In this document: in pieces, positions 9,348-43,852 of the stretch
How positions within the stretch are numbered: position 1 is the first letter of the stretch
Layout of the letters: each line of letters begins with the position of its first letter
Origin: Polytrichum commune
Taxonomy: Eukaryota > Streptophyta > Polytrichopsida > Polytrichales > Polytrichaceae
Direction of reading: 5' to 3'
Assembly: GCA_950295325.1 (NCBI GenBank)
Contig: OX485805.1
Coordinates: 54,834,758 to 54,898,757 of the forward strand
DNA length: 64,000 nt
Made by a program: the position numbers and the translations under genes
Notes under the pieces: model-generated
The model's database searches: none
Seen by the model: only the letters and a program-made list of their open reading frames with translations
Told to the model about the DNA's origin: nothing

Positions 9348-11708
9348 ATGGAAGATATTCATAAGGACCTGCTCGAGGGTCCAATGATTGATGGTTCCAA
9401 TCTTGAGATTGAAGAATCCGCCAAAACCAAATATTTCAATAGTTGTTTGGTTTTAGGTCCTGACAACTCTCAAAATCTTCTTGAATCAAGTTGCAATACT
9501 TCCACATTGATAGAGTATGCAAGGAGAAGGATTGATTTGCAAGATTACAAAGGAGCATTGGTGTACCTTGAGAGAGCCAATGATCTTGACCCTAAATGTG
9601 CAGTGACCTTGGAATATCTTGGAGAGGTGAAGAGAAATTTGAAAGATTTCTCTGGGGCCTTGGAGAAATTTAACTGTGCTAACCTATTGAAAGGTGACCA
9701 GTCTTCCATTCTCTCCCTTCGAGGCGTGGTGCAACGAGAGCTAAACAATTATCGTGCAGCACTCGAAGATCTTGATAAGGCTAACGATCTCGACCCCGAC
9801 AATGCATTCATTCACCAACAAAGAGGAGTTGTCAAGAGATTGATGAACGACTTCAAAGGAGCTTTAGAGGATCTTGATAAGGCCAATAATTTGATGCCCA
9901 AGAATGCTTTCACTCTTACACAACGAGGTGCAGTGAAAAAAGAAGTAAGAGATTTCGAAGGAGCACTCCAAGATTTGAATGATGCCAACACTCTTAATCC
10001 CACAGATGCCTTCAATCTCAGGCAACGGGGATCCGTAAACAAATCGTTGATGAAATACGAAGAAGCCCTTGTTGATTTGAATAAGGCAAATGAGATCCAC
10101 CCTAATCATGGTTACACATTGGGGGTTCGAGGGATAACCAGAAAAGAGCTACACGATTATGAAGGTGCTCTAGAAGACTTCAATAAGGCTAATGAATTGG
10201 ATGCCAATGATGTCTTTGTGTGTGAAAGGGGTGTGACCAAGAAAGCATTGGAAGATTTTGGAGGAGCGCTTGAAGATTTTGACTTGGCCAATTCCATCAA
10301 TCCAAAAAACGCGTTCATCTTGAAGCAACGTGGGGCAGTAAGAAGAGAAATGAAGGATTTTGAAGGAGCTTTGAAAGACTTAGATATGGCCAACAATTTG
10401 GAACCATTTGATGCATATTGTTTGGTAGAACGAGGCATGACAAAGAAAGAATTGGACGATTTGACAGGTGCCTTGGCTGACTACAACATGGCCAATGAGC
10501 TTGACCCCACAAATTCATTCATACTTCGTCAAAGAGGATCCTTGAGAAGACTATTGAAGGATTACAATGGGGCACTCAAAGACTTGAATGCAGCAGATGA
10601 GAATCAACCAAACAACGCTCATATTTTAAAGGAAAGAAGTCGTGTTAAACTAGAATTGAAAGATTATTTTGGAGCCAGGGAAGATTCAAGCAAATCTTTT
10701 AGATTGGGAAGCAATCACGAGTTTTCTTTCAAACATGGACCCCAAAGGTTACCTATACAATCATCCATTCATGTAAACCCAAGGACACCATACAAAAAAA
10801 AAGTGAAAACATGTGTGCCAAGCGCATTGTGGATTGATCATAAAGAATTAATAACCCAAAAGCCTTTGGGCCACGGGAGTTATGGGCATGTACATCAATG
10901 TAAATGGAAAAACCAAATAGTCGCTGTAAAATATTTGGAAACAAGTCCCAATTCGCAAGAGTTGTTTGAACATGAGGCAACAATGTTGGCTACACTTCAG
11001 CATCCACGGGTTGTAAGGTTGCTTGGTTGTGGATTTGACAAAGAAAATAATGGAGGCATTTTGGTTATGGAGCTCATGACTAACAACCTTCGCAACACTT
11101 TAAACCATCATAAACTGAAAGAAGGTTGTTCTTTTAGTCTTGATGTGGCAGTTGACATCATGACCAAAATTGCTGAAGGTATGGAATTCCTACATGGTGA
11201 AACGGTTTTACACAGAGATTTGAAATCCAACAACATCCTTGTAAGTCCATTGGACAATGGGTTCTATGATGTGAAGATTGCAGACTTCGGCGTCTCAAAA
11301 TGCAACCCTTTTGCATCTAAATTTTACTCAATGCAAGTTGGAACCACGCTATGGAAAGCACCAGAGACATTCAAAGTTGTTTCATGTGGACAATATTCAT
11401 GGGCTGCTGATGTTTGGAGTTTTTCCATCACTTGCTACGAGATTTTAAGTGGAGAACTCCCATATCATAATGAGGAAATTTCCTTTGAAGATTTTGGGAA
11501 GAAATTACAACTCGGTTTGCGCCCTAAATTAGATCCAAGTTTTTGCCCCCCGGTTTTATCATCATTGCTCCAAAAATGTTGGTCCCTCAACCCACAAACT
11601 CGACCAAAATTCTCAAAGATATGTAAAGTACTTAAACTGTATCGAAATTTAATATTGGAGGACCTTAGTTGTGACTTTAGAACAGGAGATGTATTCTATA
11701 TGAAGTAA
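9348..11708 (+). CDS. TPR-repeat protein kinase, 786 aa, single exon
   Basis: Predicted protein kinase with an N-terminal TPR array. Residues 52-465 hold twelve tandem 34-residue TPR units. Their conserved D-F/Y-x-G-A-L signature recurs at residues 66, 100, 134, 168, 202, 236, 270, 303, 337, 371, 405 and 439, so the spacing is exactly 34 except one unit of 33. The kinase domain spans about 500-768: glycine loop GHGSYGHV (508-515), ATP-anchoring Lys528 in VAVK, catalytic loop HRDLKSNN (622-629), DFG at 646-648, APE at 671-673 and DVWSF near 688-692. All catalytic residues are present, so an active Ser/Thr or dual-specificity TKL-like kinase is likely. It has no signal peptide or membrane segment, which suggests a cytosolic or nuclear protein whose TPR array binds a partner. 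ATG 9348 is the first in-frame Met before the repeats; an upstream exon cannot be excluded. The substrate is unknown. Confidence 0.92.
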   Translation: MEDIHKDLLEGPMIDGSNLEIEESAKTKYFNSCLVLGPDNSQNLLESSCNTSTLIEYARRRIDLQDYKGALVYLERANDLDPKCAVTLEYLGEVKRNLKDFSGALEKFNCANLLKGDQSSILSLRGVVQRELNNYRAALEDLDKANDLDPDNAFIHQQRGVVKRLMNDFKGALEDLDKANNLMPKNAFTLTQRGAVKKEVRDFEGALQDLNDANTLNPTDAFNLRQRGSVNKSLMKYEEALVDLNKANEIHPNHGYTLGVRGITRKELHDYEGALEDFNKANELDANDVFVCERGVTKKALEDFGGALEDFDLANSINPKNAFILKQRGAVRREMKDFEGALKDLDMANNLEPFDAYCLVERGMTKKELDDLTGALADYNMANELDPTNSFILRQRGSLRRLLKDYNGALKDLNAADENQPNNAHILKERSRVKLELKDYFGAREDSSKSFRLGSNHEFSFKHGPQRLPIQSSIHVNPRTPYKKKVKTCVPSALWIDHKELITQKPLGHGSYGHVHQCKWKNQIVAVKYLETSPNSQELFEHEATMLATLQHPRVVRLLGCGFDKENNGGILVMELMTNNLRNTLNHHKLKEGCSFSLDVAVDIMTKIAEGMEFLHGETVLHRDLKSNNILVSPLDNGFYDVKIADFGVSKCNPFASKFYSMQVGTTLWKAPETFKVVSCGQYSWAADVWSFSITCYEILSGELPYHNEEISFEDFGKKLQLGLRPKLDPSFCPPVLSSLLQKCWSLNPQTRPKFSKICKVLKLYRNLILEDLSCDFRTGDVFYMK

Positions 11709-26916: not shown

Positions 26917-27579
26917 ACACTCTTGAGAGCAATCAAAACATAACATTGATGATATAAAATGAATTTTTCCATACTCATGAACTTGTACAATAGATGCCCA
27001 TACATAATCAGTTTTTCCAAAGTTGCAGTGCATTCCAAAAGACTAGAAATTGAGTTGGCCCTAGAAGGAAAAATGAAAAAATAAACAAACTATCACATGT
27101 GAATGCAATGTTTTTATGAATACTACAATAAGGACTTGTTACCATCGAATGATGAATATCACACGCTCTTGGCTTTAAATGGATATTTTTAGCTTTGCAA
27201 TCATTTCTTATAGGATATGAAACACATAATTTGACGAACCAAAATCGTATTTGTATGAATTTTTGTTGATTATCAAAAGAAATTTTCTTGAGTTCATTAG
27301 TTTGCCAATACAGGTCCCACCAATATGTATTCACTATTGAACCTAGTATGATTAATAAATTTTAAACATGTAGTCCATACTCTTGTATTTTTTCATGTCG
27401 ATTCTTAGATATATATTAAACCATATACCACTCAAATAGTTATATGAGTAAGTGAGGACAATAGTTCTGACCTTTAACCCTCTAGAATATAGAACTTGAT
27501 CCCCTTGTAACGTAAAGTAAACACTTTGTAGGTTTCTAAGCCAAAGGTTGGTTTGCATTTAGCTTTAGTTTACAAATAA
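26917..27579. repeat. Left half of a 1.1-kb repeat split by the transposon
   Basis: This aligns with 53003-53667 at roughly 95% identity (shared start ACACTCTTGAGAGC). The alignment then jumps over the 16-kb insertion and resumes at 43853. The last four bases, ATAA (27576-27579), are the left target-site duplication. Confidence 0.92.
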
Positions 27580-27607
27580 AACACTATATTCGTTAATTGG
27601 AGACTTT
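27580..27607 (+). repeat. Left terminal inverted repeat of the transposon
   Basis: Starts AACACTATATTCG and matches the reverse complement of 43825-43852 over 28 bp with one mismatch. It overlaps a small hairpin (GAGACTTT / AAAGTCTC). Confidence 0.93.
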
Positions 27608-28030
27608 GGAAAGTCTCAAAATAAATTGGATCCGTAGTTTCGGATGTGAATATTGTGAACGTATCGAACATGGGGAACAATGGCAACATAATGTTTTAAA
27701 GATCCATATGTGATGAATATATATGTTTCTAAATATAGTAATTATTTGGGGGATAATCAAAACTACGCCAACACAATATTCCAATGTCACAAATTCACAA
27801 TTATTTTGTATTTTTTATTTTGTATTGAACAAAATTAACGAATCTATAAATAGACATCTGATTTTATATCTAGGGACTCTTGGATGCGTATCCCAAACAT
27901 AGAGGTCTTAGCCTATTGTGGTTGAATTGAACGGCACATCCTAAACGCAACAATACTTAAAATAATTTGACAGTGTGCATAAGAGATTGCAAATTAGCAT
28001 CTGCAATATAATCATACAGTTTAGGGTCCA

Positions 28031-28080
28031 CATCCGTAAAAACAAAAATATAAAAAACATTTGGATTCCACATCCGTAAA
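28031..28080. repeat. Two half-palindromes CATCCGTAAA near the left terminus
   Basis: CATCCGTAAA occurs at 28031-28040 and 28071-28080, each preceded by TCCA. It is the right half of the element's palindrome and lies between the left end and the 3' end of the transposase gene. Confidence 0.7.
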
Positions 28081-28220
28081 TCAATGCATCCATGCACTAT
28101 AATTGTAATCTATATAATTGCTATAAAATGTGTCTAATATAGTATTCGACCCCAATGTCATATATTTCATGAAAAACCAAGACACATTTCAAATATATTT
28201 CGTCCAAACCCACGTCAATA

Positions 28221-31200
28221 TCATTCACCATCTTCATCTTCAGCTTCATTTCCATTCTCGACATTGTTTTCTGCAGCAGCAATACGTGCCAAGTTGTCTT
28301 TGGCAAAATCTATATGTTTTTGGGGGATGGTCATTGTCTCAGTTTTGGAACCTTTGCGTGGTTTCCAAGCACAAAGTATGGTATCCGTGTTTATCCAAAT
28401 TGGTTCGTATGCTGAGTCCATTGTCCATTTGAAACATTTTTTCGTGTCCCACCCTAAATATGTGCGGAGCACATTTTGATCTTTGGTGCTTGGACGGCAA
28501 TATTCCACCTCAATTTGACGAAAATTTGGGCTAGTTGGAACAAAATTTGGTGATGACAATGCTTTCACCAACCAAACCGGTTTTGGATGCTCCTCATCTC
28601 CAGGACGTACGAGGACCATATAACCTTCGTAGCAATCAATAGCCACACGGAATGATGGAGCCGGACAATTACGAGCAGGGCCAACATAATGGTCGTCTGC
28701 CGCGAACTCTTCACGGACGTCCCCATTGTTGAAGAACATGGCCTCAGATTCCACGATTGTCACTCGGCTTTGTGGCCAAAAACCTTGTGTCAAACATGAG
28801 TGTCTATCGACATCGGGTGCTAGCAACGCTGAGCGGATGCGATCCCAATACGCAATCAATGGTTCGTGGGTATCCCGAACACGTCTTGTGATGTCTTCCT
28901 CGCACAAATCTTTCCAGTACTGGATGAATCCAGATATACCTTTGATGATTTCTGGCCCATTCCTCATGGGGTTGGGTTTGCAAGGCTTCGGCTCCCCATC
29001 AGTTAGCATACATTTGCCATCTTCGTTTTGGCGCCAGACGAGTATCCCTTCCTCTGGACCCCAATTTGGGGAGGTACACAAAACTTTGAATTGCATGGCC
29101 GGCAGACCATCATCACGCATATAGAACCGGAATTGTTGAGCCTTGGTATGGCCCACTAAGCGATCACCTCCCTTAAGAATGAATGGTTTGATAAACGCTT
29201 TGAAATCGGACACTTCTTCAATCAAATGCGGGATGACTGGCACATTATCCAAATCCATGTACGATTTCATGAGAAGAGGAATTGTGGGAAAATCCTCCTC
29301 GTGCAACTTCATACTCCAACGTCCGAATGAAGCGTCAATGTCATCGTGCGTGTGGCCAACCATCAAAAAAGACACAAACACTTCTTTGAAAATGTCCTTG
29401 GCTACGAGCAATGACCAAAAACAAAATACGTATCGACATTTGTTGTCCTTGGTACAATTATCAAGTTACACGTGTAGAGTTGGAGGCAAAGGTTTGGCAA
29501 GAACGGGTTGTTCAGGCGGTTCTTGCAGTGAAGATAGGCAAACCTCCTTCCCCTCTAGCACAGCCTCATAAATCGGTGTTGTTCCACATCCAACAAAAAG
29601 AGCACGAGAGGATGATGTTGGCGGACTCTCAAGATCTCGTAGAAGTTTTGCAAAAGACCCTACGGTATGATTGGCGTCACCAGGATAAAAATCCAAGCCA
29701 TAATGTGCATATTTCACGTCCACATGGCCATGTGCGATCATACCTGCATTTAGGGACACACATGAAATAGTCATTCCAAAATCATATATATGAATGAAAT
29801 TCAAAATTTCCACAAGCAAGCCAAAAAATGTACACTAACGGACGTACATCCGTAAATCTTAACAATGAGTATGTGGGCACGCAAAAAATAAATGTGAAAA
29901 CCAACAAACCTGTGACAGATATTGGAAGCTTGAAATATCCATCTGTAGCTTTTATTTTCCGTGCATAACAAGGGCACGCCGTCTTTGCATGGTCCATTTT
30001 GTCATGAATGATTGTCAAAACCTCATTCGGCCTCATTATCGATAATGCGCGATTCTTGTAGTAGTCTTGACGGTGTGCCTCCTGGTTGTTGACATGCTCA
30101 ATGTATTTCAGTTGATGTCTGTTGTGCGACTCAGTACCTATGGGATGTGCATCTCGAAGGCCTTTATATTTCTCACAAGCAGAACACCTGGCAAACTTAT
30201 CCCCGGGTCTCTTCGTAATGTATTCTGCGAATTGTTGATTCTTAATCACACTCAATTTTGACAACGAAATCGGCCCACATCCAGCCTTTTCGCCAACTTC
30301 ATTAACATCCATAAGTATGTTCTTCCATTTTGTCCCTGTAGGCAAAACCATCTGAACAACCTTTTCCCCCGACGGTAGAGTCCGCGTCTTGTGTGGCATC
30401 GCATCTGCCAATGGCATAATGATGGTTGATAGTGTTGCAGCCGCTTGGAGTGTTGCCTCCCTAGGCTTTTTTGTGCCAGAGTTGCCATGGAACCGAGAAC
30501 GGCGTCCTTGCATCGAATAGTTCCGGAACCTATAAAAATCTGCCTTTGAAACTGCATGTATAATGTACCATGCCTTGCAACATACCTCTACATTCTCCAA
30601 GGTCACAACCTTACGACCTTCGGCATCAAGGTGCATGTTGCGATGGACTTCAAGTTTCTTTGCAGATCGCATACGAAAGTCCGCGAGCCACATCTCTTGT
30701 CTCAAAGATTTGATTTTGTCACGGGGAAATAGTTGGCAACATCTCTTTGCACAACAATCCTTTGTTGCTACGGACCTAATAGATGCGTCTCCCAATGTTT
30801 GATCTCGACGACGTTGCGTGGGTTCACGAGGCAAACGAACGGAATCATATTTACGGCGACCTATTCTAGGGCGCATTGTGGCGAACAAAGCCGATTGCAT
30901 TTGATCAAAACGGCGGGAATGATTCCACAAGCTAACACCATCATGAAGAACACTGCGCAACGGCCATCGACGAAGAGAGAATCTCCAACCAGTAGGCACT
31001 TCCAACGGATGTAAGGAATTCAAAATGCATACCCCCACATCTTCTTCCCCAAGGGGATTTGCATCAATACAATCCGTAGGATTCGAGTTCCGACAAACAC
31101 CATCCGCCACGGGGACGCCACATCCATTGAGTAGGACGACATCCAGATCAATCCACTGCTCCCGCGAATAACCCTGACATGGTGGAAGGAATTCATCCTC

Positions 31201-31314
31201 TACATTGGCGACACCAATTGTAGTATCTTGTTCCACGACAACTTCAAACTCGCTAGCATAGCTTGACGCTTCCGAAGAAAAATCAACCCAACTATCACCG
31301 ACGTTGGAATCCAT
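28221..31314 (-). pseudogene. GHTHDDID-type transposase, two exons, one in-frame stop
   Basis: Exon 1 is 31314-29910 and exon 2 is 29743-28221; intron 29909-29744 (166 bp) has GT-AG ends and keeps the frame. The product would be 975 residues. Motifs: Cys cluster CCAKRCC (about 187-193), CSAC with nearby His residues (about 377-400, zinc-binding-like), HDKMDH (about 437-442), LDNCTKDNK (562-570) and GHTHDDIDASFGRW (598-611), then an acidic C-terminus. I associate this motif set with the DUF7869-like proteins common in moss, lycophyte and algal repeats. The acidic residues at 438/441, 563 and 605 are candidate DDE/D catalytic residues by inference. One TAA at 29466-29468 replaces codon 561, probably a former CAA, directly before LDN; otherwise the frame is open. 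The start at 31314 (MDSNVGDSW) is chosen because upstream in-frame residues look intergenic. Confidence 0.85.
29744..29909 (-). other. Transposase intron containing a degenerate palindrome
   Basis: Donor CAG|GTTTGT and acceptor TGCAG|GTATG on the minus strand; splicing joins SVTG to MIAHGHV. A degenerate copy of the palindrome (AACGGACGTACATCCGTAAA) lies inside at about 29836-29857. Confidence 0.8.
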
Positions 31315-31458
31315 GGCCACTACAAGAAAGCCCAATGAAGAGTATGTCAAAATATCCCATTCAATAAATGTCATGGATAGCCCTAACGCTTATTATTGTC
31401 AATGAAACACAATGTGAACACTAGTGGCTTTCATGGCTTGGAAACAAAGCTAGCATTG

Positions 31459-31671
31459 GTATACGAACGTGCGTCCGTATACCTCCATGTAACAACATCA
31501 GCAGCGCAAGCACACGCGCATACGGATACATTTATGTGTTCATAGGAGCGGAAAGGTGGAGGCAACAAAAACATCACTGGTTTATGGACGCGCATCTGTT
31601 AATCGGCTCGTGCACAGAGTTCAGTATCATGCTCAACCACAACATAGGTATACGGACGCGCGTCCATAAAC
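31459..31671. repeat. Three diverged palindromes 5' of the transposase gene
   Basis: Copies are at 31459-31482, 31580-31602 and 31648-31671, each within a few changes of TTACGGACGCGCGTCCGTAA. Several of the changes are CG to TG or CG to CA. A half-site, CATCCGTATG, follows at 31671. Confidence 0.85.
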
Positions 31672-31960
31672 ATCCGTATGACAAACATCAATGTAGTCCT
31701 AGACACAGGTTCAAGGAAGCAAGACGTCCTCCAAAAACGGCCATGTGTACACAGCCCTGACGACTCATGAAATCTGAGGAGGATTGAACACGGCCATACG
31801 CGCTTCCTAAAATGTTTAATCAATGTCAAAATATTTTACTATGACATAGGGTGATGTAGGCTAAGGGATGCGAGCTCCCAACCCTTCCTGACCGTACAGT
31901 CTCAGTGCAGTCTCAGTCTACATGGCACATGGTCAACATTATGGTAACAAAGGTTTCCAG

Positions 31961-32308
31961 GTTTACGGACGCGCGTCCGTAAACCTCTGTGGACCTCATT
32001 TCTAGCATAAAGACAGTGCTCGACGGAATACACCTCTGTGGACATCATTACTAGCCTAAATACAATGTCCAACGCGCCAAGGAGTTTACGGTTTACGGAC
32101 GCGCGTCCGTAAACTTCCATGGTAATATATTGTCGTTGTGGTACTCTACACGACAGGTGGTGTAGGTGACCTACAGAACTATGGCACCAAAGGTATGCAG
32201 GTTTACGGACGCGCGTCCGTAAACATCCACGTACACGAGTATTGGCTCAAACAAATAAAGGTTCAATGAACCAATATGTTTAAGGTTTACAGACGCGCGT
32301 CCGTAAAT
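31961..32308. repeat. Four palindromes upstream of the transposase gene
   Basis: Copies at 31961-31984, 32091-32114 and 32201-32224 are perfect 24-bp inverted repeats (GTTTAC arms around the CG-rich core). 32285-32308 has one CG-to-CA change. Spacing is 130, 110 and 84 bp. They lie 0.65-1.0 kb 5' of the transposase start, where promoter or regulatory sequence would be expected. Confidence 0.93.
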
Positions 32309-32381
32309 CTCCGTGATTTGCGGCGTTAAAATAGGATCATTGCACCAGAAAGGATAACTGTCCGAAATTTTAAAAAAATCA

Positions 32382-32640
32382 GCACACTACAAGGAGAGTG
32401 CAACCCAAATACAAATTGTCTACCCTAATGGGCTCAGGATTTGGGGTTTAGGGTATAACAGGATCTTAACCTGCACAAAATCTGTAGCAGGAGCACACTA
32501 CAAGAGCGCAACCCACAGCTGAGATGCAAAAAGAGTCCCGACGGTGGGGGGTGTCCCCTTAAGTATTGATCGCTTTCCCTTGGATCCGTTTTCCAACATA
32601 GGATACCAGCCACCAACTATGTCCTATAAATACAAACCTA
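32382..32640 (+). promoter_or_regulatory. Possible promoter-like segment
   Basis: It contains CTATAAATAC at 32624-32633, resembling a TATA box for rightward transcription, and a direct repeat of GCACACTACAAG at 32382 and near 32492. No gene starts immediately downstream, so its role is uncertain. Confidence 0.2.
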
Positions 32641-33361
32641 GCATTACTACATTCCGTGTGCCAGCCTTACAATGGAATGTGTATTCATGTGGACAACATG
32701 CATAGACCATGAGTCCACATAATGACAAAGAGAAAGGCATCTATGTATTTGTGGTATACAACAAAGTAAATTGGCTAATATTATATGAGCAATAAACATT
32801 GTTGAGGGGTGGTTTATAGGATTGGAGTACATAATATGAAGAGTACATTTTAAAAAACGTAGACAAAAAATTATAGAATCTTGTGAAAAATCAACCACCA
32901 CAACAACAATAGTACATGGAGTATAAAAATACATGTAATCAAAATTAAATTAGCAACTACTTTATTATTTTGCATACAATGTAATGGTATTGACCATAAT
33001 ATCATGCTATCTCCTCTCATCTTGCATTTAATATTATAATTACATTGGCCACCGCCTTACCATCCAACGTGTTTAATGTACCCAACTATACACACCTATA
33101 CATAATTGTATTGATATCTTATACACAAACTTTGATTACCGTAAGGCCATGATAGTAGCACATCTATTGTCCTAGGTAACATGGGTTGCATTCAATTCAA
33201 TATTGTCAATTTCTCTCTAAACCTTAGGGGCCCCTTCCGTACATCAACATTTACTTCAAAAAAACTAATTATACTAGCCTTCTTCATGTACTATACGTGA
33301 GGAAAAACAATTTTTAGTACCTCATGTACATTACCTACATTAATTAATACTCAAACAATAC

Positions 33362-33800
33362 CAATTGTTGCTCCAAGTAACATTATTAGCCCAAAAAAAC
33401 ATAATGGAGAGAAAGGAAGGGTAGGGTATCCACATAGTAATAAGGCAAGCAATATTAAGTTGGTGACGCAAGGGGGATACTCACATGCGTTCGTACGTGG
33501 TACCCTAAACCCTAAACCCTATAACCACCCAACCCTAAACAAGCATGTGGACATATAGGGGTGCAAGCATGGTTAACTGAACAACTCCTGATACATGTCA
33601 AGGCTTAAATGGAAAGTAATTCAAAACAAGCAAGCAAACAATTATACCAATTGTTGTTCTACGTAACACTATTAACCCATAAAATATAATGGACAGAAAG
33701 GGAGGGTAGGGTATCCAAATAGTAATAAGGCAAGCAATATTAAGTCGGTGACACAAGGGGGATACCCTAAACCCTAAACCCTAAATCCTAAACCCTATAA
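33362..33800. repeat. Tandem duplication ending in telomere-like CCCTAAA repeats
   Basis: 33362-33520 and 33646-33798 are about 85% identical direct copies with a period near 284 bp. Each ends in plant telomere-type repeats: CCCTAAA twice plus CCCT at 33503-33520, and four units, one mutated, at 33764-33798. The tract is interstitial and lies inside the transposon, between its two divergent genes. Confidence 0.85.
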
Positions 33801-35690
33801 ACGACTCCCCACTCATGTCAAGGCCCAAAATTATCTAAAATAAAACCATAAACATTTCAAAAGTCAAGCAAATTTATGTTCACAAATTATACTTCAAGAC
33901 AGTAAGTGGTGAAAAAGTAGGTGACATAGAACAAAGATTTATCAAATTGTCAATGGCAATCCTAATTACCCTATATGCGTAACCTTACCTTTCATTTTTT
34001 TAATCTTTATTTGGCTGGGTAAAATATACCCCTTAGAGGCAAGTACAAGATTTAGCCGGGACTTGTTATCCTTTGATGTGACCTCAAGTTTATAATGAAA
34101 TGAAGGGATACAATATGAAAACAATTAAGCCTTCAAAACATTTAAGATCATCAAAGTGATGTTCTGAGTCATATTTATCCATTTGCTTTAAACCTTTACT
34201 TTTGAAGATAGGTTTTGAACAGCATTAACACAACCATACATGTCACCATCATGGAAACAAAACTCCAATATAAACAACAATTTGCTACTACTTATAGGCG
34301 ATAATACAAGCTCTTGCCTAGGTTTGGAAGGATAGGATGAATCCTGAACGTTGTTTAATGTACAAGAGGGATGTAAATTCAACACCTACCCATGCCTTTT
34401 GTTTTAATGCAAGCTTAGACCTATGTGCAGAGGGATTGAATTAAACCCCAACGTTGTTTAAGATTTTATAAGCATTTGATCTTAACCCATATTATCTCGA
34501 TGTTTGGTTTTGTTAATTGTGTTTCAAATGTGCATAATTTAAATATCATTATTTATAATGATATTCGCATCAAAGCATCCCACGTGTCGAACTTCAATAA
34601 AGTTTTCAAGTTGCTATTGATAGTATAATGTAGGGTTGAAAATCCCCTTACACAAATTATTGCGATAATTGAAGGATTCATAAGGGCGTAGGGGCAACGT
34701 TTCATGAGAATTTGTGGCCAATGGGTAATGCAATTGTCCCAATTGCATTTGAATCCCACCTTTGTGAAAAAAAAATTATACTTAACTTAATCAAGAAGAC
34801 ATCCTTTATATTCAATATTATTACTATTCTTAAAATATAAAGTCCCCTCCATACTTGCTACACTAGAAATGGTATAATTTAGTTTCACTCATTGTTTGGA
34901 GTTACAAAAGGCTTTATCTTTTTATTATTGATGTTATTTAATTGATGCCAATGACATATTAATATACAATGAATAGTTAATATAGCAATCCATAATTCTA
35001 AATATTAAGCAATACTACTTATAATAGTTAGTGTACTAGTAATTTAAAGCCCGCTTACCTTCATATTACAACAAGTCCACAAAGAAAATCTTACACTTGA
35101 GTTACTCAACCTCAACCTATACTTCAGAATTATGTTTACTATTGGGCCTAGATGGTTATTATACATTGAGCATTGAGATTCCTTTATTTTTGGTCAGCAA
35201 TTGTTTTTGGTATACGTTCTTGGACTCAAACAACATACAATCCATCCTCTATAAATGTTAGGCTCTAGAATATAATGTTCCTAACATTTATTGTGAGTTG
35301 ACATTGTAACAATTATAAAGGGAGCTTTTTGAATGCTTAACAAATTTCATTCATTACAATTATGAAGGGAGAGTTTTGCAAAATTATCAAACATAAAATA
35401 TGTGTATCAATCACAATATAACCCATATTAATAATTTGATCACAAATTTGGTGGCTTTTGCCACTTTGGAAGGTTGTGACTCAATGTAATGGATGTCATC
35501 TCACAATATTGGATGTAGTTTGTAGGTTAACATTTATAAGTGGCAAATTAACAAAGAGGGGAATAAATTATTCTTAACATTTAACAAAGTTAACATTCTA
35601 GTTAGCAATATGAGAGGAGTATGAATTTGTTAACAAATACAATTATGAGTTAACATGTGGAAGTGTGACATTTATCGAGGGTAGACTCTA
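33801..35690. other. AT-rich spacer inside the transposon
   Basis: No gene, palindrome copy or clear repeat was found in this stretch. It separates the two divergent genes of the element and contrasts with their roughly 50% GC coding exons. Confidence 0.5.
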
Positions 35691-35714
35691 GCACTCTAAT
35701 ATAGACCAATAGAC

Positions 35715-35830
35715 ATATGCCACGTAAGGGGAACGCGTGGCCTTTGGGCGCGGGGTGATGGGACGTCTAGGTAGGGGCGTTTGGGAGGGAGTGGATGCAA
35801 CGTTTTGGGTTTAGGGTTTCGTGCATTCGC
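35715..35830 (+). promoter_or_regulatory. Candidate promoter of the rightward transposon gene
   Basis: A locally GC-rich stretch carries CCACGTAA and ACGCGTGG (G-box-like) and a telo-box TTAGGGTTT at 35811-35819, which in plants is typical close to transcription starts. A second telo-box lies at about 36278-36286. The CT-rich leader follows directly. No TATA box was identified. Confidence 0.4.
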
Positions 35831-35839
35831 CCTTGCCTT

Positions 35840-36120
35840 TTTTGCTTTCACCCTTTCACCCTTTCCTCCTTTCGCTCCTTTCCTCCTCCTACATTCCTTT
35901 GTTGCTCGCCCTTGCTCCTCGCCCTTGCTGCTCGCCCTTGCTGGTCCTCCTTCTCCTCCTTCTCCTCCTCCTCATTCTCCTTCTCCTTCATTCTCCTCCT
36001 CAATCTCCTTCTACTTGTTGTTTCTCCTCATTCTCCTCCTCCTTCTACTTGTTGTTTCTCATCCTTCTCCTCTTACTTGCTGTTTCTCCTCTTTCTCCTT
36101 CTTGCTCTTGATTTGTTGCT
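35840..36120 (+). repeat. CT-rich low-complexity tract
   Basis: About 280 bp almost purely pyrimidine on the plus strand. It is built from CTCGCCCTTGCT units and then TTCTCCTCC / TACTTGTTGTTTCTCC units. All three plus frames are open across it only because CT-rich codons avoid stops; these are not genes. It may be part of the 5' leader of the rightward gene. Confidence 0.85.
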
Positions 36121-36925
36121 TTGTGTCTTAGTTGCATAAGAGCGCCAGGAGCTCTAGACAGGTGTTTTTTTCTTTCCTTCACTCCAAGATGTGCTGTTCC
36201 AGGTGCTTATTAGGTGATTTCAGTGTATGTTTTGATGCACAAGAGGGGGATTGTAAGATTGTAAGATTGTAGCTGGTTTAGGGTTTCTAAGATAATGTAT
36301 GTGAAGAAATCTGAGTATGTTTGTGAAGAAATTGAGTAGTTTTTTGCTTGCAGTCTCATTAGGACATAATTGGAGTAGTTTCAGTTGGAAGGGTTTTAGG
36401 GTTGGAGTAGTTTTAGTTGTTTCAGATTGCTCTTCCCTTCATATTGTAATTGTCTTCACTTCACTTCAATTCACTTTGTCCAAGTTCTAAGAAGTTTTAC
36501 TTTGTTCACTTCAATCTGATGTCAATGTTGAATCCAATTCAATCTTTGTAGTAGGGTTTTTTTGTGGGTTTGATGCATTTTAGGAGCAACACAAAAGTTA
36601 GTTGATTCTTGAATGTGCACATTGCATTTGCAGAGGTTTCTAACTTCAATTTTATTGTTAATTTGCAGTCTCTCCTAGCTGCAGCTGTGGTTTAGGAGCA
36701 AACATTGTACAAAGGTAAGTGTTTCCTACAACATTGCAATTCTGAAATGATACAGTCTTCTTAGTTTGGAGTGTAGAATCTGCTATTGCAATGCAACACC
36801 TCATACATTCTAAACTGGAGTGCAAATCCATGTTGCATTCCAAGTTAAGATGAACATTGCACATGAATGTAATGCACAGAAAAAGTTCTTCCGAAAATTT
36901 CGGAACAATATCCAAAAACACATTA

Positions 36926-37275
36926 ACAATAATTGTACAAAGTACTTAAATTCACAGTAATTAAAAAATGGTCTGAAGTTTACGAACGCGCGTCTGTAAA
37001 CTTCAGGGAACCCTGGGAATAAGCATCGCAAATTGTGTGAAAACATTAACAATAATTGTGCGAAGTAATTAAATTCACAGTAATTAAAAAATGGTCTGAA
37101 GTTTACGGACGCGCGTCCGTAAACTTCAGGGATCCCTGGGAATAAGCATCGCAAATTGTGTGAACACATTAACAATAATTGTGCAAAGTAATTAAAATCA
37201 CAGTAATGCCTGAAGTTTACGGACGTGCGTCCGTAAACTTCATGGAACCCTGGGAATAAGCATCGCAAATTATAG
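36926..37275. repeat. Tandem repeat, about 120-bp unit, three copies, each with a palindrome
   Basis: The unit holds ATTAACAATAATTGTGC, AATTAAATTCACAGTAATT, then the palindrome and CCTGGGAATAAGCATCGCAAA. The third unit is shorter. Each palindrome here is extended to 32 bp by TGAAG / CTTCA (for example 37097-37128). Confidence 0.9.
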
Positions 37276-37764
37276 AGATATTTTAAAATAACTATTAATA
37301 AACTTGAGATATACAAAAATCTTGAGATATACTTGAAATCTAATACATGACACATGTGCAGAGTTTACGGACGCACGTCCGTAAACTAAGCATAGAAAAC
37401 ATGAGAATCTTATAACATAATACATGCCATGGGTTTTCAAAATAAGTTCTACAAAATATACAAGTTCTACACAACAAAAACAAACATATTTTCCAAAAAT
37501 TTACGGACGCACGTCCGTAAATAAGGGCTACATAAGAATAAAAAACCTATTATATTCCAAAATATAGAACTAAAAACTTTTGGATGATATATCCGCATGA
37601 GTTTACGGACGCGCGTCCGTAAACTCTGCACATATATCATGTATGAGATTCCTTTTAATAAGATATTTCAAGTTTACGGACATGTACTCTAACATAATAC
37701 ATGTGTAGAAACCCACATTCTATATGAGAATGAACGCATAAATTTACGACTGCGCGTTCGTAAG
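36978..37764. repeat. Seven palindromes and one half-site in the leader intron
   Basis: Copies at 36978, 37101, 37215, 37363, 37499, 37601 and 37742 (each about 24 bp), plus a left half-site at 37673. 37101 and 37601 are perfect; 37215, 37363 and 37499 differ by single CG-to-TG or CG-to-CA changes in the centre; 37742 is degenerate. Confidence 0.93.
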
Positions 37765-38318
37765 ATAGGCTCTGCATCCCTTGACCATAATATTGATTTA
37801 TATATTTCACATTTGCAGATGGAATCTACAAAAAGACCAGCTATTGATATATTCGCAGAGCTTGTCCATCTTCCGCTTCCAAAAGCCATCAAAGACATAA
37901 GCCACAACGACCATTACAAGCCACGCGAAGACATTGTAGATAACTGGACAGTTATCGTAGAAAAAGATGAAAAGGAGATATTTGTCCTTAGATTTGCCTA
38001 TCAAATAAAAGCAGATATAGATGAAACCGAAAAGTGGATCAAGGTCAAAAGTTGGACAGTAGAGTGTGCGGTAGCCCAAGGTGATTATGTTGTCATTGAC
38101 CTTGAAAAGAAAAATGATAGGATCACATTTATTTTGCACGAGTTGTACCATCCGTTCAACAAAAATGAATGTGAGAATGCTAGCCCAGATGCGTCTTGCT
38201 TCATGGGTTGCCAACATCGTGGCTGGAAGGACCTTGTGGGTGGAGCACGATTGTCCCCCAAAAGAGAGGGAGAATGCAGTCATCAAAAATCCCAAATGGC
38301 AGGTATGTCTCAGTATAA

Positions 38319-38342
38319 TTTTACGGACGCGCGTCCGTAAAC
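38319..38342. repeat. Palindrome in intron 1
   Basis: A near-perfect copy, 16 bp after the donor of intron 1 (38303-38426) of the rightward gene. Confidence 0.93.
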
Positions 38343-39788
38343 TTCTTCCCATCTCCTTCCAAATTGAATTCCTTTAATTTCTTCGATTTAAACTCTGCTG
38401 ATTTCTTGTAATACATGGCATTGCAGACATTCAGCAATGCCATCTTGACAAAGTTCTCCAGCATTGACTTGAAGACAAGCGGCATGAAGACGGTGCAGGA
38501 GCTGAAGGGGGAACTTAAGCTCATCACCGCCACAGAAGAGACATGGGCAATTTGGTTGCGCCTATTCGATGCCCACAACAACGGAGACCTTATCAATCCG
38601 GATACAGAAAACACGTACAAGAGCGATTCGAAGGTTAAGGTGCCACCTATCCTGAGAGAGTTCTTTCGTCCCCTCCAAGGATTGCTCGACTCCGAACTGT
38701 ACAGAGCGGCACAACACATCCTATTGGAGACTCCGAGGAGGACACTGCCCTACCCCAAAATCTTCCTGAAGCGACCGAAGCACATGAAGCCTTCTACGTA
38801 CCACATTAAGGAATGGTGCGAATACAGGAAGAAGAAGACCATGGCTATAAGGGAGATAAGCAAGTTGCTGTCCTCCCACAACCTCACTAATACAGATGGG
38901 GAGATAATGTGGGAAAACTGGAGGACGCTCAAGGAGGAGTATCACATCAATGGGGTCTCCATGCGATCATTGATAAGAGGCGCATCTCCCTTCCTAGCCC
39001 AAAGATCTAGGAGGAACGAGAAGAAAGGGTCTATCGACGAAAGAGAGACGGCGTTGTACGTCCATTTCCTTGATAGAAAAAAGAAAGCAAAATTCGGAGG
39101 GGTCGCAAGATTCTGCACTGTTACAACGGCCTTGAAGTTTGGCACATGGGACACACATGCTTCAAGAGCCTCTGTGAGAGATGACCCCCGGGGTTGTCCA
39201 TTCACACTATTTGATTTCCGTGCATTTCCCGGATCTTGGAGACAAAACGCTAGCGGGACCGCTTTCTATGACAACTTCTTCAAGGCCTTCAAGAGCTATC
39301 GGTCGCCTACCCTCTTCGAGCCAAATGTGTGGCTCTGGATCGTAGATCAAGAGAGGTCCGCATCGGTCGTCCAGCTTTACACATCGACGATGAACCTCCA
39401 ATACGATCTTTACCACAGCACATACATCCCTGCGAAGACGGAAGGGATCAGTGTTATTGAAGAGGCAAGAGGGGCGAAGCAGGTCGGGGCTTTGGCACTT
39501 TATTTCTTGACACACAAGTCTTCACCAAGTGGGCGGATGCTTATAAAAGCGCAGAACGTGTTCAAGAAAGTATACTCGTTGCCACCACCACACCCAAAGG
39601 AGCTTGTCGCGGAGACTATGTATACAATCTACCCAGCGTACGAGCTCCGAATGGATTTTTATATTGGAGTCTTGAAGGCTGTGACTGTGATGAGTGAAAC
39701 AGTTTACAACGTCTTCGGAGGCACCAAATTTGTTTATGCGGCATTGGTAAGTACTTGTATGCACCTCTTTCCATGCTTCATCTGAATT

Positions 39789-39915
39789 GAAATTTACGGC
39801 CGCGCGTCCGTAACATTGGCCACACAAATATGCAGTGTAAATTTACGGCCGCGCGTCCGTAAACATTGCGCAACAAATCTGCAGTGCAAATTTACGGCCG
39901 CGCGTCCGTAAATTG
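39789..39915. repeat. Three palindromes in a 49-bp tandem repeat, intron 2
   Basis: Copies start at 39792, 39841 and 39890, all with the private variant TTTACGGCCGCGCGTCCGTA. The shared G-to-C change shows local amplification inside intron 2 (39747-39992). Between copies is AAATCTGCAGTG-like text. Confidence 0.93.
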
Positions 39916-41198
39916 CAGTGTTTCATGATTATATTTGTCCTCATACTTGCTCGCAACAATGGAATGACTATAATTTCCTTGTTTTGGTGCAGATGCTTGG
40001 GTTGCAGGTAAATTCGTTTGTGGAGGCTCGCGACATGGATGAGGCGAATACTCATAGGTTTCTTGCCTCGAAAATGGATATCGAAGACATCATCGATGTC
40101 CTTACCCCCCATCCTGTGGTGCCTCTTGCCTCAAGAGAAGAGGGAACTCCTGCGACGGAGTGGGACAGTGACGGAGACCGAGAGCCCGTCTCCCCAAGAG
40201 AGCAGCCAGCCAGACAAGATCACGTGCCCGGCCTTGTTCGTGATCCTGTTCATCCTCATCAATTTGTCTTGGGCGAAGACCGCATGGATACAGAGGGGGC
40301 GCATGAAGACTTCACTCCAATAAGGGTCCATCCTACCCCTATTTCCTCTCCCTTTGGGACTCCCACTTCTCGAGTTGGGTTTCCTTCCACTGCGGGTCCA
40401 TCGCGTGCTGCTGGGCTTATGGCAGAGAAGGATGTGGACGTTGCGACAGAAGCCGGATGCACAGCCTCATCTGGAGGGGGATCTGAACAGGCAGAGCTAC
40501 CACCTATGGAGGGTAGAGATGTGTTGGAGTTGATTTTGAGGCCGGATATCGCCTCATACCGTGAGAGTTGTCGACAGAGGAAGAAGACTCCTTACAACGA
40601 GTACCCTGAAGGCGCCGTCTTGGAACTCTCTGATGAAGACAAGGATGAGGTTAGGATGTACAATGCCCTCTCTGCGTTGCCTTCTGAACCTGGCAAGGTG
40701 AAGAAAGAGCCGATGTCTGTGGCCGAATTGGACGAGAAACTGGAGAAGAGAATGAAGGAAGAGCTTGACCAACGGCTTCGAGAAGCTAACGAGGAGCACG
40801 TCAAAAAGATGGCCGCCATCCAAGCTGAGATGGAGGAGGCTAGGTTGGAGTCTGCTCGAAGGCACGCCGATCTCATGGCTCAAAATCAACAATTGTTGGC
40901 CCAGAGCCAACAATTTATGAGCCTCATGCAGAGCTTGCAAGCAAGACCCCCAGTAATGTATGCAGCTCCCGAAGCCGGCATGTCGATGCCTCCCACTCTC
41001 ATGCGGCCTCCGTCTAGTAGCCATACGGTGTACATACCAGAGCATACCTATCCAGCCCCCGCCTTGTATGTCCCGCCCTCTCCCCAGGTTGCCGCCACCC
41101 CAGAGCCCTCTTCTCATACCGTACGAGAGGAGGAGAGACCTGCACGTTAGACGGCAGGTGCTCACGAGAAAGGCGCCATTGAAGACATCACAACCATT

Positions 41199-41291
41199 GG
41201 CAGCCAAGAAGATGAAGATATGCGGGGCAGCCAGGAGGATGAACATATGCGGGGCAGCCAAGAAGATGAACATATGCGGGGCAGCCAAGAC
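41199..41291 (+). repeat. In-frame 27-bp minisatellite in exon 3
   Basis: Three full units and a partial fourth encode GSQEDEDMR, GSQEDEHMR, GSQEDEHMR and GSQDTTDED. The array lies just after the in-frame TAG yet has kept its frame, which supports the view that this region was coding until recently. Confidence 0.9.
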
Positions 41292-41377
41292 ACCACAGAT
41301 GAAGATCAACCTCATGTAGATACCCAGGGGTCGCAAGCGGCTGGAGGCTCCTTCGTGGTGGAGGATAGCTTGCACAA

Positions 41378-41400
41378 TTTTGCGGACGCGCGTCCGGAAC
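41378..41400. repeat. Palindrome inside coding exon 3
   Basis: A TTGCGGACGCGCGTCCGGAA variant, translated in frame as part of NFADARPEP. It is the only copy I place in coding sequence. Confidence 0.85.
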
Positions 41401-41490
41401 CTGTGCCCACGATGGGGCCTGGTGAGGGAGGCACTGCTGGCGAGGGCCTCTCCGCTGAAGAGGTAATCCACCTTTGAGCTTGCCTCCCAC

Positions 41491-41511
41491 GTTACGGACG
41501 CGCGTCCGAAA
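41491..41511. repeat. Palindrome in intron 3
   Basis: GTTACGGACGCGCGTCCGAA, 28 bp after the donor of intron 3 (41463-41802). Confidence 0.9.
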
Positions 41512-41802
41512 CTTCCTTGTCTGCCAACTTCGTGGCGTGTGCATATTGTCGAGTTCAATGCTCGACTTCGCCCGGCGGGTGGATGCAATTTTGCCAGCAT
41601 AGATTCAATTAGTTTTAGGGGAGACCTTTTGTGACAATGTAAATTATTCGCGAAATGTATTAAACCAATCACATTAATACAAATTTTTTGAACTGCGTAT
41701 TCGTATTCTTTTTGCCTTATATTTGTTTGTTGAGTTTGTGCATGCTTGTCAATTGGTTTTCATGGGTAGTACCATTCACCTAGATAGTATTTTCCATCAC
41801 AG

Positions 41803-42570
41803 GGTCCGTCGGAGATATGTCGCAACCCCGCTGAAAGACCAAGCCGGCCCATGAGGAAACCGTTCATAATATTTGACCTCAATGGGGTGCTTTGTCATTC
41901 CATGCATATCTCCAATAGTGCGTCGAAGGGTCCCTTCCGTAGTCCACAAGACATGGATTACGGCGGACAGTTCGATACTCTCATTAACAAGAAGGTTGTA
42001 CGGGCCCGGCCGGGGTTGAGGTGCTTCCTTCGTGATGTCCTTGGCTTGGCCCATGTCATCATCTGGAGCTCTATGCTCATGGACAACACGAAGGCCATCG
42101 TCGGTTTCCTTTTCCGAGAACTCGCAATGCCATGCTTGCTTCTCGGTCAAGAACACTGCGATGACCTTTATGACCGTAATGGCAACATTGTACCCAAGGT
42201 CGGAGGAGGCCGAGGGCCTCAATTCCTAAAGGAACTGAGGAAGAACCTTTGGGTGGGCGTCCCTATGTTGGAGGGGGTGCCCCACGGTTGTTGGCCCACC
42301 CCGGAGAACACGCTCCTCATTGACGACAGCCTGGCAAAGAGTATTCTCAATCCCCCGGGCAGTTGCATATTCCCGGATCCTTGGGAGAGTGATAGAAATG
42401 ACAACTTTCTAGAGAATGAACTAGGACCCTACATTAGGAGGCTTGCCTATCACCCCGGAAGTGTCCCGGATTTTGTCCTCTCCAACCCCATTGGCAATAG
42501 GCCTCTAGGCCCAAGAGATGAGGAATTTAGGAGGTTGTACGGCTATGCCAAACTCAATAAATTAATATGA
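41803..42570 (+). CDS. Exon 4: FCP1/NIF-like HAD phosphatase domain
   Basis: This uninterrupted exon encodes 255 residues; from the Met at 41851 it reads MRKPFIIFDLNGVLC. HAD motif I is DLNGVL (Asp9, Asn11), motif II is IIWSSM (71-76), a candidate motif III lysine is in ELRKNLW near 131, and motif IV is LLIDDS (Asp158-Asp159). The order and spacing fit the NLI-interacting-factor / FCP1-homology group, which dephosphorylates phosphoserine, classically on the RNA polymerase II CTD. Motif I has Asn where the general-acid Asp is expected, so activity is doubtful. Acceptor CACAG|GGT at 41803 is in phase with exon 3. If translated alone, the start would be 41851. Confidence 0.8.
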   Translation, partial: GPSEICRNPAERPSRPMRKPFIIFDLNGVLCHSMHISNSASKGPFRSPQDMDYGGQFDTLINKKVVRARPGLRCFLRDVLGLAHVIIWSSMLMDNTKAIVGFLFRELAMPCLLLGQEHCDDLYDRNGNIVPKVGGGRGPQFLKELRKNLWVGVPMLEGVPHGCWPTPENTLLIDDSLAKSILNPPGSCIFPDPWESDRNDNFLENELGPYIRRLAYHPGSVPDFVLSNPIGNRPLGPRDEEFRRLYGYAKLNKLI

Positions 42571-42658
42571 GAACTGCTTTTTGGGTTTGTACTTGGACTC
42601 TCCATGTTTATATCTAACATTTCTCCCCGTATTTTGTAAATGTATTTTTGTGTCTTAG

Positions 42659-43543
42659 TTGCCTCACCAAGCATCCCAAAGTCTCGTCCATGGCATGTGT
42701 GCATCTAAACCGGGCCCCAGCTCCCCTTCCATCGGTGTGACCGACATTTCAATGCCTTCACTATTTCAATTTTCAGCCGTCGATGCCGCCTCTGCTGTTG
42801 ATTACTCCAAAGACTCGGGGTTTGAAGACGGAGTTGTCGATAGCCCTCCTCCAAAGGTTGCAAAACTCAATTACGCTCCATCTCCATCTCCATCTCCCCT
42901 CCGCAATGAGAAGCACGTTCGAAACCCGCGGTCGACCAGACGCCTTTGTATGGATGAACCCCAAATTGGTGTCCCGGCGTTTACGAGCGTCCCTGTTGTG
43001 CTTGTGGCCCCCCTCGATGTCGCAGAAGCTCAAACCACCGCCCCGCAGGCCAAGGTGCCCACTTATTGGCATTCTCAAGTTTTTTCTTCATGATTTCCGT
43101 GGATTAGTGCATTTCATATTCTTGGGTTTTTCGGACATCCATCCGTAACTTATACTAACCCACGTCATTATATGTATTTATGGTCATTGTTTCAGACCCC
43201 AATACACATGAATGTGGGCCGTTCATCCTCGACTTCGTCATTGGATAGGCGAACACTGAAGACTGCTTCTTGCGAGTCTGATCGTTGTTTGGCCCTACGG
43301 AAGAGTGAAAGACGTTCGTTTTCCCAATCGCATTCGTATTCCACTTATTCGGTAGGGGGTCGGCAAATATGGGCAAATGGCACATATTCGGGGTCGACAA
43401 ATACACAAGGTTTTAGCCGCGGACCCGAGATCTTTAGAGCCATGGAGGCCATGAAAGCAAAAGAACGTGAAACGGCCATAAATGCTAATAATAGTATTGC
43501 AAAAGCAAAAGTAGTGAGTCGTAATCATGATCCGAACGTATAG
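42659..43543 (+). CDS. Two-exon reading frame at the 3' end of the element, unknown product
   Basis: Exons 42659-43054 and 43196-43543 join in phase 0 (AAG|GTGCCC donor, TTTCAG acceptor), giving about 247 residues. An acceptor-like GTCTTAG stands immediately before 42659 and no good ATG opens the frame, so these may be 3' exons of a longer transcript. I could not find a matching donor before the TGA at 42568-42570. The protein is Ser/Pro-rich with a basic RNPRSTRRLC stretch (possible nuclear signal). I do not recognise a family. Confidence 0.45.
43128..43149. repeat. Degenerate palindrome in the last intron
   Basis: TTTCGGACATCCATCCGTAA, inside the intron 43055-43195 of the 3' reading frame. 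Confidence 0.75.
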
Positions 43544-43824
43544 GCTATATTAACATACATGTAGTTGTGGAATTATGTTTCTAGGACTTTCGCCTAATAT
43601 TGGATATTCCACTTGTATTTTGTACTTCAACCCCTATTCAATAAATATGATATTGATTTTCCATATGCAAATGTTTTCATATATCCCATTTTCTTATTTT
43701 TATGTGTGGTTCCATGCATTTGAGTCTCTTATTTGTTTCCAAAATTGGGAACATAGCATATTTTTAGTGTTTTCCTTCCTACAAATGTGAAAGCCACGTC
43801 CTTAAATAGTCTCAAAATCAACAA

Positions 43825-43852
43825 AAAGTCTCCAATTACCGAATATAGTGTT
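43825..43852 (-). repeat. Right terminal inverted repeat of the transposon
   Basis: Reverse complement of the left terminus with one mismatch, ending CGAATATAGTGTT and followed by the ATAA target duplication. Confidence 0.93.

Follow-up and report, generated by a model that had tools for sequence, protein, structure and literature searches.

Results

Sister families of a two-gene transposon carry different inverted repeats of one geometry

In a 64,000-nucleotide stretch of Polytrichum commune DNA (contig OX485805.1, positions 54,834,758 to 54,898,757, hereafter the window) we found that a two-gene transposon at 27580-43852 carries 22 copies of a 20-bp inverted repeat made of two 9-bp half-sites separated by 2 bp (the 9-2-9 dyad). 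Sister families of this element, which have the same type of transposase (DUF7869), carry different dyads of this one geometry, and this comparative result is what is new here. Judged from sequence, the motif most plausibly serves as a dimer-binding site for a protein that the element encodes, a reading that is supported in part, and each family's dyad probably lets the family's own protein find and keep active only its own copies. The candidate for this protein is the product of the second gene, hereafter gene 2.

A sequence-only reading of the window had reported about 22 palindrome copies. Searching with a 22-mer at up to 6 mismatches we found exactly 22 in the element, at coordinates shifted by 0-2 bases from those reported. 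Six are perfect and 17, spanning 31650-41511, match TTACGGACGCGCGTCCGTAA with at most 3 mismatches, and five sites (29836, 31461, 31582, 37744 and 43129) are clearly degenerate, with 4-6 mismatches out of 22, so that the earlier description "perfect or near-perfect" was generous. At the threshold of 3 mismatches 100 dinucleotide shuffles gave 0 matches, and perfect 9-2-9 repeats number 9 in the element against a shuffled mean of 0.10 (1 and 0 in the two flanks); the sites are indeed far beyond chance. Half-site scoring of the 47.7 kb of flanking DNA gave 0 on both sides, as had been claimed for the remaining 47 kb, and the nearest match outside the element (23796) has 7 mismatches out of 22. 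The sites are spread over the whole element, again as reported, with one of the 22 (41380) in coding sequence and the rest in promoters, introns and other non-coding parts, exon borders being taken from frames and splice-like letters without transcripts. The left 2 kb holds degenerate half-sites near 28031 and 28068 and no fuller site. Several of the sites are accounted for by local tandem duplication of 123/114-bp and 49-bp units, so the 22 sites do not represent 22 independent events.

The borders proposed by the sequence-only reading were right: the element is flanked by ATAA on each side. All six elements of which both ends were read have 4-bp target duplications (ATAA in the window, TTAG in the distant family copy g549, and TCAT, AGTG, CCAT and ATTA); in four more that were tried the left end lay outside the estimated positions. 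The end defined by the duplication is AACACTATATTCG, and the letters CACTA begin two bases inside it. The transposase of the window scored 110.9 bits against DUF7869 (cut-off 26). A protein search gave at least 101 transposase matches, the window itself among them; of those listed, 77 have no stop codon in the match. We found no literature on this uncharacterised domain and therefore leave the transposon superfamily unnamed.

The window element belongs to what we call family C. A genome search for the palindrome, as had been proposed, found the exact 16-mer core at 1,097 places in the 408-Mb genome and its reversed-pattern control at 0; with any centre, the 20-bp dyad was found at 1,310 places. 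Placement was checked for the first 50 of the 1,097 core places, all on contig C1, and all 50 were assigned to family C copies. Among them 43 lie within the spans of five copies (three spans two-sided and two, with 14 places, assumed to be about 17 kb long), four lie in family C sequence by alignment (L047, L054) and three (37108829-37109234) were assigned solely by lying 5 kb from the L054 cluster. In the places examined, the family C motif stays within its own elements. Frequent occurrence outside the family, which had been named as the outcome that would speak against the sequence-only reading, was thus not seen in these 50 places, but the dyads of two sister families (TTTGGGTCG and CCACGGGTG) do occur elsewhere as well.

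To describe the sister families we used a DUF7869 family search that listed at least 150 places with several open-frame lengths. From these we took five larger samples and 15 further loci picked to represent the open-frame-length groups. Inverted repeats of 9-2-9 geometry and of one family type, from two to dozens per sample, are present in each of the five larger samples and in 12 of the 15 loci. Six half-sites were defined, each with 0 places for its reversed control: TTACGGACG in family C, TTACGAACG in C' (3,737 genome places), TTTGGGTCG in B (10,011, counted by the inner 18 bp), CCACGGGTG in A (819), CCACGGGCG in A' (208) and the looser GGTGNGGCA in D (485). Perfect 9-2-9 repeats again exceeded the shuffled means (33 against 0.07 in B, 18 against 0.17 in A, 9 against 0.03 in C', 7 against 0.03 in A' and 6 against 0.07 in D). 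When sites were counted at up to 2 mismatches over the 18 half-site positions, the B, A/A', C/C' and D samples had none in common; the overlap of C with C', and likewise of A with A', comes from half-sites that are a single base apart. The half-sites of A, B and C have G at positions 5 and 9 in common, as expected if their readers are homologous. The CpG richness that the sequence-only reading had stressed is not a general feature: the GGTGNGGCA half-site has no CpG and those of two families have one, so that CpG content varies by family while the 9-2-9 inverted repeat stays. In the window, CpG observed/expected is 0.79 in 27572-43852 against 0.42 and 0.45 in the flanks, and 0.72 once the dyads are masked.

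Families A, B and C agree in where their sites lie, namely upstream of the transposase gene, in the gene 2 5' region and in introns 1, 2 and 3. The same positions are therefore filled by unrelated sequences. This extends to one or two coding sites per family in exon 3, where the dyads spell FADARP (C), FGSSDPN and FGSADPN (B) and HGCSPVG (A). A literature search returned no description of such dyads among the matches listed, which is not proof of their absence.

Gene 2 diverges faster than the transposase

Gene 2 was found in families C, C', B, A and A', and in these five its product has a NIF/HAD domain. In copies other than that of the window the end region of exon 1 holds DGQHS, of which GQH is invariant. 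A later exon matches the NIF domain (PF03031) in families C (E 9.2e-12), B (4.5e-15) and A (4.6e-11). NIF/FCP-type phosphatases of the HAD superfamily have the catalytic motif DxDx(T/V). This motif was not found in the four gene 2 sequences aligned, two from C and one each from B and A (window 41803-42570; L006:5850-6611; L008:5673-6389; L011:7660-8298); all four read DxNG at motif I, with asparagine at the second position of the motif. This suggests binding rather than catalysis for the NIF-like domain, and we can only conjecture that the domain takes part in the mechanism proposed below. A literature search for NIF together with transposon or transposase gave no related paper. A YEATS reading of the start of exon 1 was rejected (Pfam E 0.02; 15.2 bits, below the cut-off of 22; low-confidence all-beta model).

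We compared amino acid identities of the two genes between families (gene 2 in the order exon 1, exon 2, NIF; transposase in two parts where two values are given). Between C and C' the transposase is 89-90% (over 183-196 aa) and 75-79% identical, against 42, 52 and 59% for gene 2; between C and B the values are 65 and 64% against 32, 36 and 41%, and between A and A' 88% against 68, 65 and 79%. C and g549, which have the same dyad, show 92 and 88% against 77, 77 and 86%, with exon 1 taken from a burst copy. Gene 2 is less conserved than the transposase in all four comparisons.

These values bear on the idea that the transposase itself binds the dyads, either for transposition (assembly, bridging) or to autoregulate its promoter. 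In C, B and A the transposase gene has a cluster of sites immediately upstream, as such autoregulation would have it, and transposases differ between families too. We nevertheless consider this unlikely, because the sites are internal, the first 9-2-9 site being 2.2 kb away from the left end and the stretch before it holding degenerate half-sites only, because the C and C' dyads differ though their transposases are 75-90% identical, and because families C and B have nearly identical terminal repeats and unrelated dyads. This last observation points to gene 2 as the reader, as does its faster evolution, though neither is proof.

Half-sites are conserved while centres vary in several families

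Within a family the half-sites show little variation; among family B sites, preselected at up to 3 mismatches, 3 of 531 positions are changed. The centres vary, with nine different centres in 59 B sites and eleven in 55 C' sites, and self-complementary centres are in the minority in B (19/59), C' (10/55), A (1/34) and A' (5/21). This is as expected for two separate contacts, one per half-site and a set distance apart, and not for a hairpin. We also compared the window element with g549, taking the sites from one copy only and using an aligner that may anchor on repeats: over 13 gap-filtered sites 17 of 260 site positions differ against 163 of 499 in the flanks, over all 22 sites 54 of 440 against 225 of 632, and as seen from g549 58 of 440 against 357 of 850. 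CpG transitions were counted as well (close pair of copies, 10/99 in sites and 24/133 in non-coding sequence; distant pair, 7/62 and 33/94), but these counts are biased, the sites having been picked by resemblance in both copies, and we do not rely on them.

Bases beyond the core stay complementary in C and C' while their sequence varies (window 29836-43148; L014, L015, L018, L043). Permutations gave a flank symmetry as good in 0 of 2000 cases for C and 17 of 2000 for C'; for A this was 0 of 2000 for the nearest six bases and 162 of 2000 for positions 3-8. No flank symmetry was found in A' (614 and 164 of 2000), B (558 and 1999) or D (1997 and 1868).

Could the dyads be without any function in cis, palindromes multiplied by tandem duplication, gene conversion or template-switch correction of quasi-palindromes? 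The tandem units, the complementary flanks of C and C', the mostly self-complementary centres of C and D and a pair of close copies without sign of constraint (see below) would all suit such an origin. We judge it rather unlikely, since the centres are free in B, C', A and A', three families fill the same compartments with different sequences, the sites are better conserved than their flanks relative to g549 and sites are retained within coding exon 3 in three families.

Proposed mechanism and its weak points

On balance we lean towards the view that the dyads are a family-private address, read by the family's own dimeric gene 2 protein and countering silencing, and that the logic of the VANC proteins of Arabidopsis VANDAL elements would have evolved here separately. 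As a symmetric dimer, the gene 2 protein would bind the 20-bp inverted repeat, and the many sites on the element's own promoters and introns would become loaded with it. The bound protein would then recruit an activity through which the element's chromatin is open or its genes are expressed despite host silencing. When a new subfamily arises, half-site and protein would shift together, so that sister families ignore each other's sites. The pairs TTACGGACG and TTACGAACG, and CCACGGGTG and CCACGGGCG, would represent one-base steps of such protein-DNA co-evolution, each step applied to many sites per element and to hundreds to thousands per genome. We infer three links in this chain: the choice of gene 2 over the transposase or a host factor as reader, its dimerisation, and an outcome of anti-silencing or activation.

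Several results weigh against this mechanism. The gene 2 of the window is broken, with the GQH region missing from exon 1 and a TAG in exon 3, and other copies would have to supply the protein. The 8 kb of family D examined yielded no gene 2, and the 3.7-3.8 kb fetched of L021, L022 and L026, the remaining three of the 15 loci, showed no dyads. Models of the gene 2 fold gave pLDDT 38 for exon 2 and 55.5 for the exon 1 start, none of them usable. Faster evolution would equally be expected of any less constrained accessory protein. The argument from free centres does not apply to C and D, where most centres are self-complementary (64/84 and 71/90), and the possible anchoring of the aligner on repeats tempers the g549 comparison. 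Relative to the close copy at C7:20.37 Mb the sites are no better conserved than their flanks (19/439 against 34/871 positions differ), and they differ by 4.3% against a non-coding average of 2.1%. This speaks against strong short-term constraint on single sites; the lack of a difference may be due to redundancy and to the broken gene 2. Finally, some repeats in which no family genes can be recognised contain B arrays with about 32-bp spacing (L046, L048, L055, L056) or A-type sites (L049, L058); these may be decayed or non-autonomous relatives, or other repeats that use the same reader.

The last of these points, together with the position of sites in promoters and introns, is what one would expect if a host transcription factor or insulator protein bound the dyads, captured per family to drive the genes. 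We regard this as improbable: six near-exclusive half-sites would need six host proteins of 9-2-9 geometry, and family C shows no excess outside repeats in the 50 places listed. That the dyads work in RNA, as intron or 5'-leader hairpins that affect splicing or yield double-stranded RNA, is very improbable, since, although many sites lie in introns near splice sites, others lie upstream of both genes, all would be recognised on either strand and a 2-base centre cannot close a full hairpin.

Features of the window and neighbouring sequences

The coordinates of the element, its genes and its sites are given in Table 1. In the L003/L004 copy (C7:31678900-31696000), which belongs to a recently multiplied subgroup, the gene 2 region is inverted relative to the window copy, and we found no NIF exon within the 17.1 kb read. 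Outside the element, an open frame at 9312-11708 of the window encodes TPR repeats followed by a protein kinase domain and is plausibly a host gene. Two copies of one other repeat lie at 6494-7470 and 61284-62225; this repeat is also present near B arrays at C1:475 kb.

Table 1. Positions of the family C element, its genes and its dyad sites in the window (last row, positions in the joined L003/L004 sample).
Feature	Position	Strand	Remark
Whole element, family C	27580-43852	.	between 4-bp duplications ATAA; ends, duplications, inverted repeat
Left target-site duplication ATAA	27576-27579	.	
Right target-site duplication ATAA	43853-43856	.	
Left terminal inverted repeat	27580-27607	+	AACACTATATTCGTTAATTGGAGACTTT
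Right terminal inverted repeat	43825-43852	-	
Transposase gene, DUF7869 part, open frame	28221-29465	-	Pfam PF25273, E 7.8e-32
Transposase gene, upstream part, open frame	29782-31389	-	no Pfam match; approximate exon borders
Gene 2 exon 1	37819-38304	+	shorter than in other copies, without GQH part; borders from letters
Gene 2 exon 2	38418-39749	+	444 aa, no named family
Gene 2 exon 3	39990-41461	+	coiled-coil-like, acidic; in-frame TAG 41148-41150
Gene 2 exon with NIF/HAD domain	41803-42570	+	PF03031, E 9.2e-12; motif I DxN
Dyad site, degenerate	29836-29855	.	transposase intron
Dyad site, degenerate	31461-31480	.	upstream of transposase
Dyad site, degenerate	31582-31601	.	upstream of transposase
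Dyad site	31650-31669	.	upstream of transposase
Dyad site, perfect	31963-31982	.	upstream of transposase
Dyad site, perfect	32093-32112	.	upstream of transposase
Dyad site, perfect	32203-32222	.	upstream of transposase
Dyad site	32287-32306	.	upstream of transposase
Dyad site	36980-36999	.	gene 2 5' region, tandem unit 1
Dyad site, perfect	37103-37122	.	gene 2 5' region, tandem unit 2
Dyad site	37217-37236	.	gene 2 5' region, tandem unit 3
Dyad site	37365-37384	.	gene 2 5' region
Dyad site	37501-37520	.	gene 2 5' region
Dyad site, perfect	37603-37622	.	gene 2 5' region
Dyad site, degenerate	37744-37763	.	gene 2 5' region
Dyad site, perfect	38321-38340	.	gene 2 intron 1
Dyad site	39794-39813	.	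gene 2 intron 2, 49-bp unit 1
Dyad site	39843-39862	.	gene 2 intron 2, 49-bp unit 2
Dyad site	39892-39911	.	gene 2 intron 2, unit 3
Dyad site	41380-41399	.	coding exon 3, spells FADARP; frame open at site in g549
Dyad site	41492-41511	.	gene 2 intron 3
Dyad site, degenerate	43129-43148	.	late intron or 3' region
Gene 2 exons, L003/L004	10510-13919	-	joined sample

Discussion

The main case known to us of transposons that counteract silencing in a sequence-specific way is VANDAL/VANC, TNPA being a forerunner. If the mechanism proposed here is true, a second, unrelated lineage would have the VANC logic, and private addresses would be a general escape from silencing that leaves rivals asleep. Five related dyads and proteins in one genome would make the joint change of specificity of protein and sites directly testable, and small symmetric dyads with separate readers could serve sequence-targeted epigenome work. 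Whether we are dealing with an independent self-recognition code, in which a two-gene lineage that is neither VANDAL nor CACTA uses private 9-2-9 dyads and a diversifying dimeric NIF/HAD reader, seems to us evenly balanced.

Palindromic sites are found in bacterial ParB-parS as well, and the DGQHS/NGQHT stretches of gene 2 exon 1 fall on the G-x-R-R region of ParB. The profile comparison, however, was not significant and we rejected this kinship: hhalign against P1 ParB and three plasmid ParBs gave a probability of 0.2% (E 0.35), lower than the 1.6% of the unrelated exon 2 profile. In PHROGs, phrog_1033 (ParB-like) matched two of four gene 2 sequences (E 0.016 and 0.024); Pfam and NCBIfam scans of gene 2 gave no ParB match, and a profile search of the PDB gave nothing better than E 1.

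The sequence-only reading had set the element beside classic En/Spm, a CACTA element. CACTA elements have a 3-bp target duplication, a terminal repeat starting with CACTA and a Tnp2-type transposase, and their second-protein motifs are concentrated subterminally. TNPA of Spm is an activator that lowers methylation; a literature search for TnpA/Spm demethylation with subterminal sites found nothing. The window element resembles En/Spm in having two genes, a repeated motif that would serve the second protein and CACTA letters near its ends. It differs in that its duplications are 4 bp long, its transposase is of the DUF7869 and not the Tnp2 type (no Tnp2-type domain in the two transposase frames in a Pfam scan at E up to 1), and its sites are internal and dyad-symmetric. 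These features rule out membership, and the CACTA framing has to be dropped.

The parallel that had been drawn to VANC and TNPA is borne out in part: the motifs are sister-specific, non-coding and tandem-multiplied and the second protein evolves faster. The CACTA part and the broken gene 2 of the window call for correction. VANDAL elements are Mutator-like, in contrast to the DUF7869 transposase and 4-bp duplications found here.

In published accounts of the VANDAL/VANC anti-silencing system of Arabidopsis (PMC5735166, PMC10398659), motif arrays occupy introns of both VANB and VANC as well as the region upstream of VANA and have been multiplied in tandem, sister families use different motifs, VANA is more conserved than the second protein, and one VANC motif is carried by the unrelated repeat AT9TSD1 (PMC5735166). 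The likeness lies in short family-specific motifs, many per element, in introns and upstream and spread in tandem, and AT9TSD1 has a counterpart here in the B and A sites that lie beyond recognisable family members. Two features of the VANC principle, a family-specific non-coding motif and a transposase more conserved than the second protein, are both present. The motif of VANC21, as given there, is a non-symmetric 9-base YAGTATTAY in one orientation, whereas here it is a 20-bp dyad. VANC proteins have DUF1985/DUF287, and Pfam scans of the gene 2 exons of C, B and A found neither. Judged by its layout, the system would be a VANC-like variant of transposon self-recognition. In our analysis the element is a member of neither the VANC nor the CACTA system: it shares the layout of VANC, on another element, with another protein and with a motif of another form.

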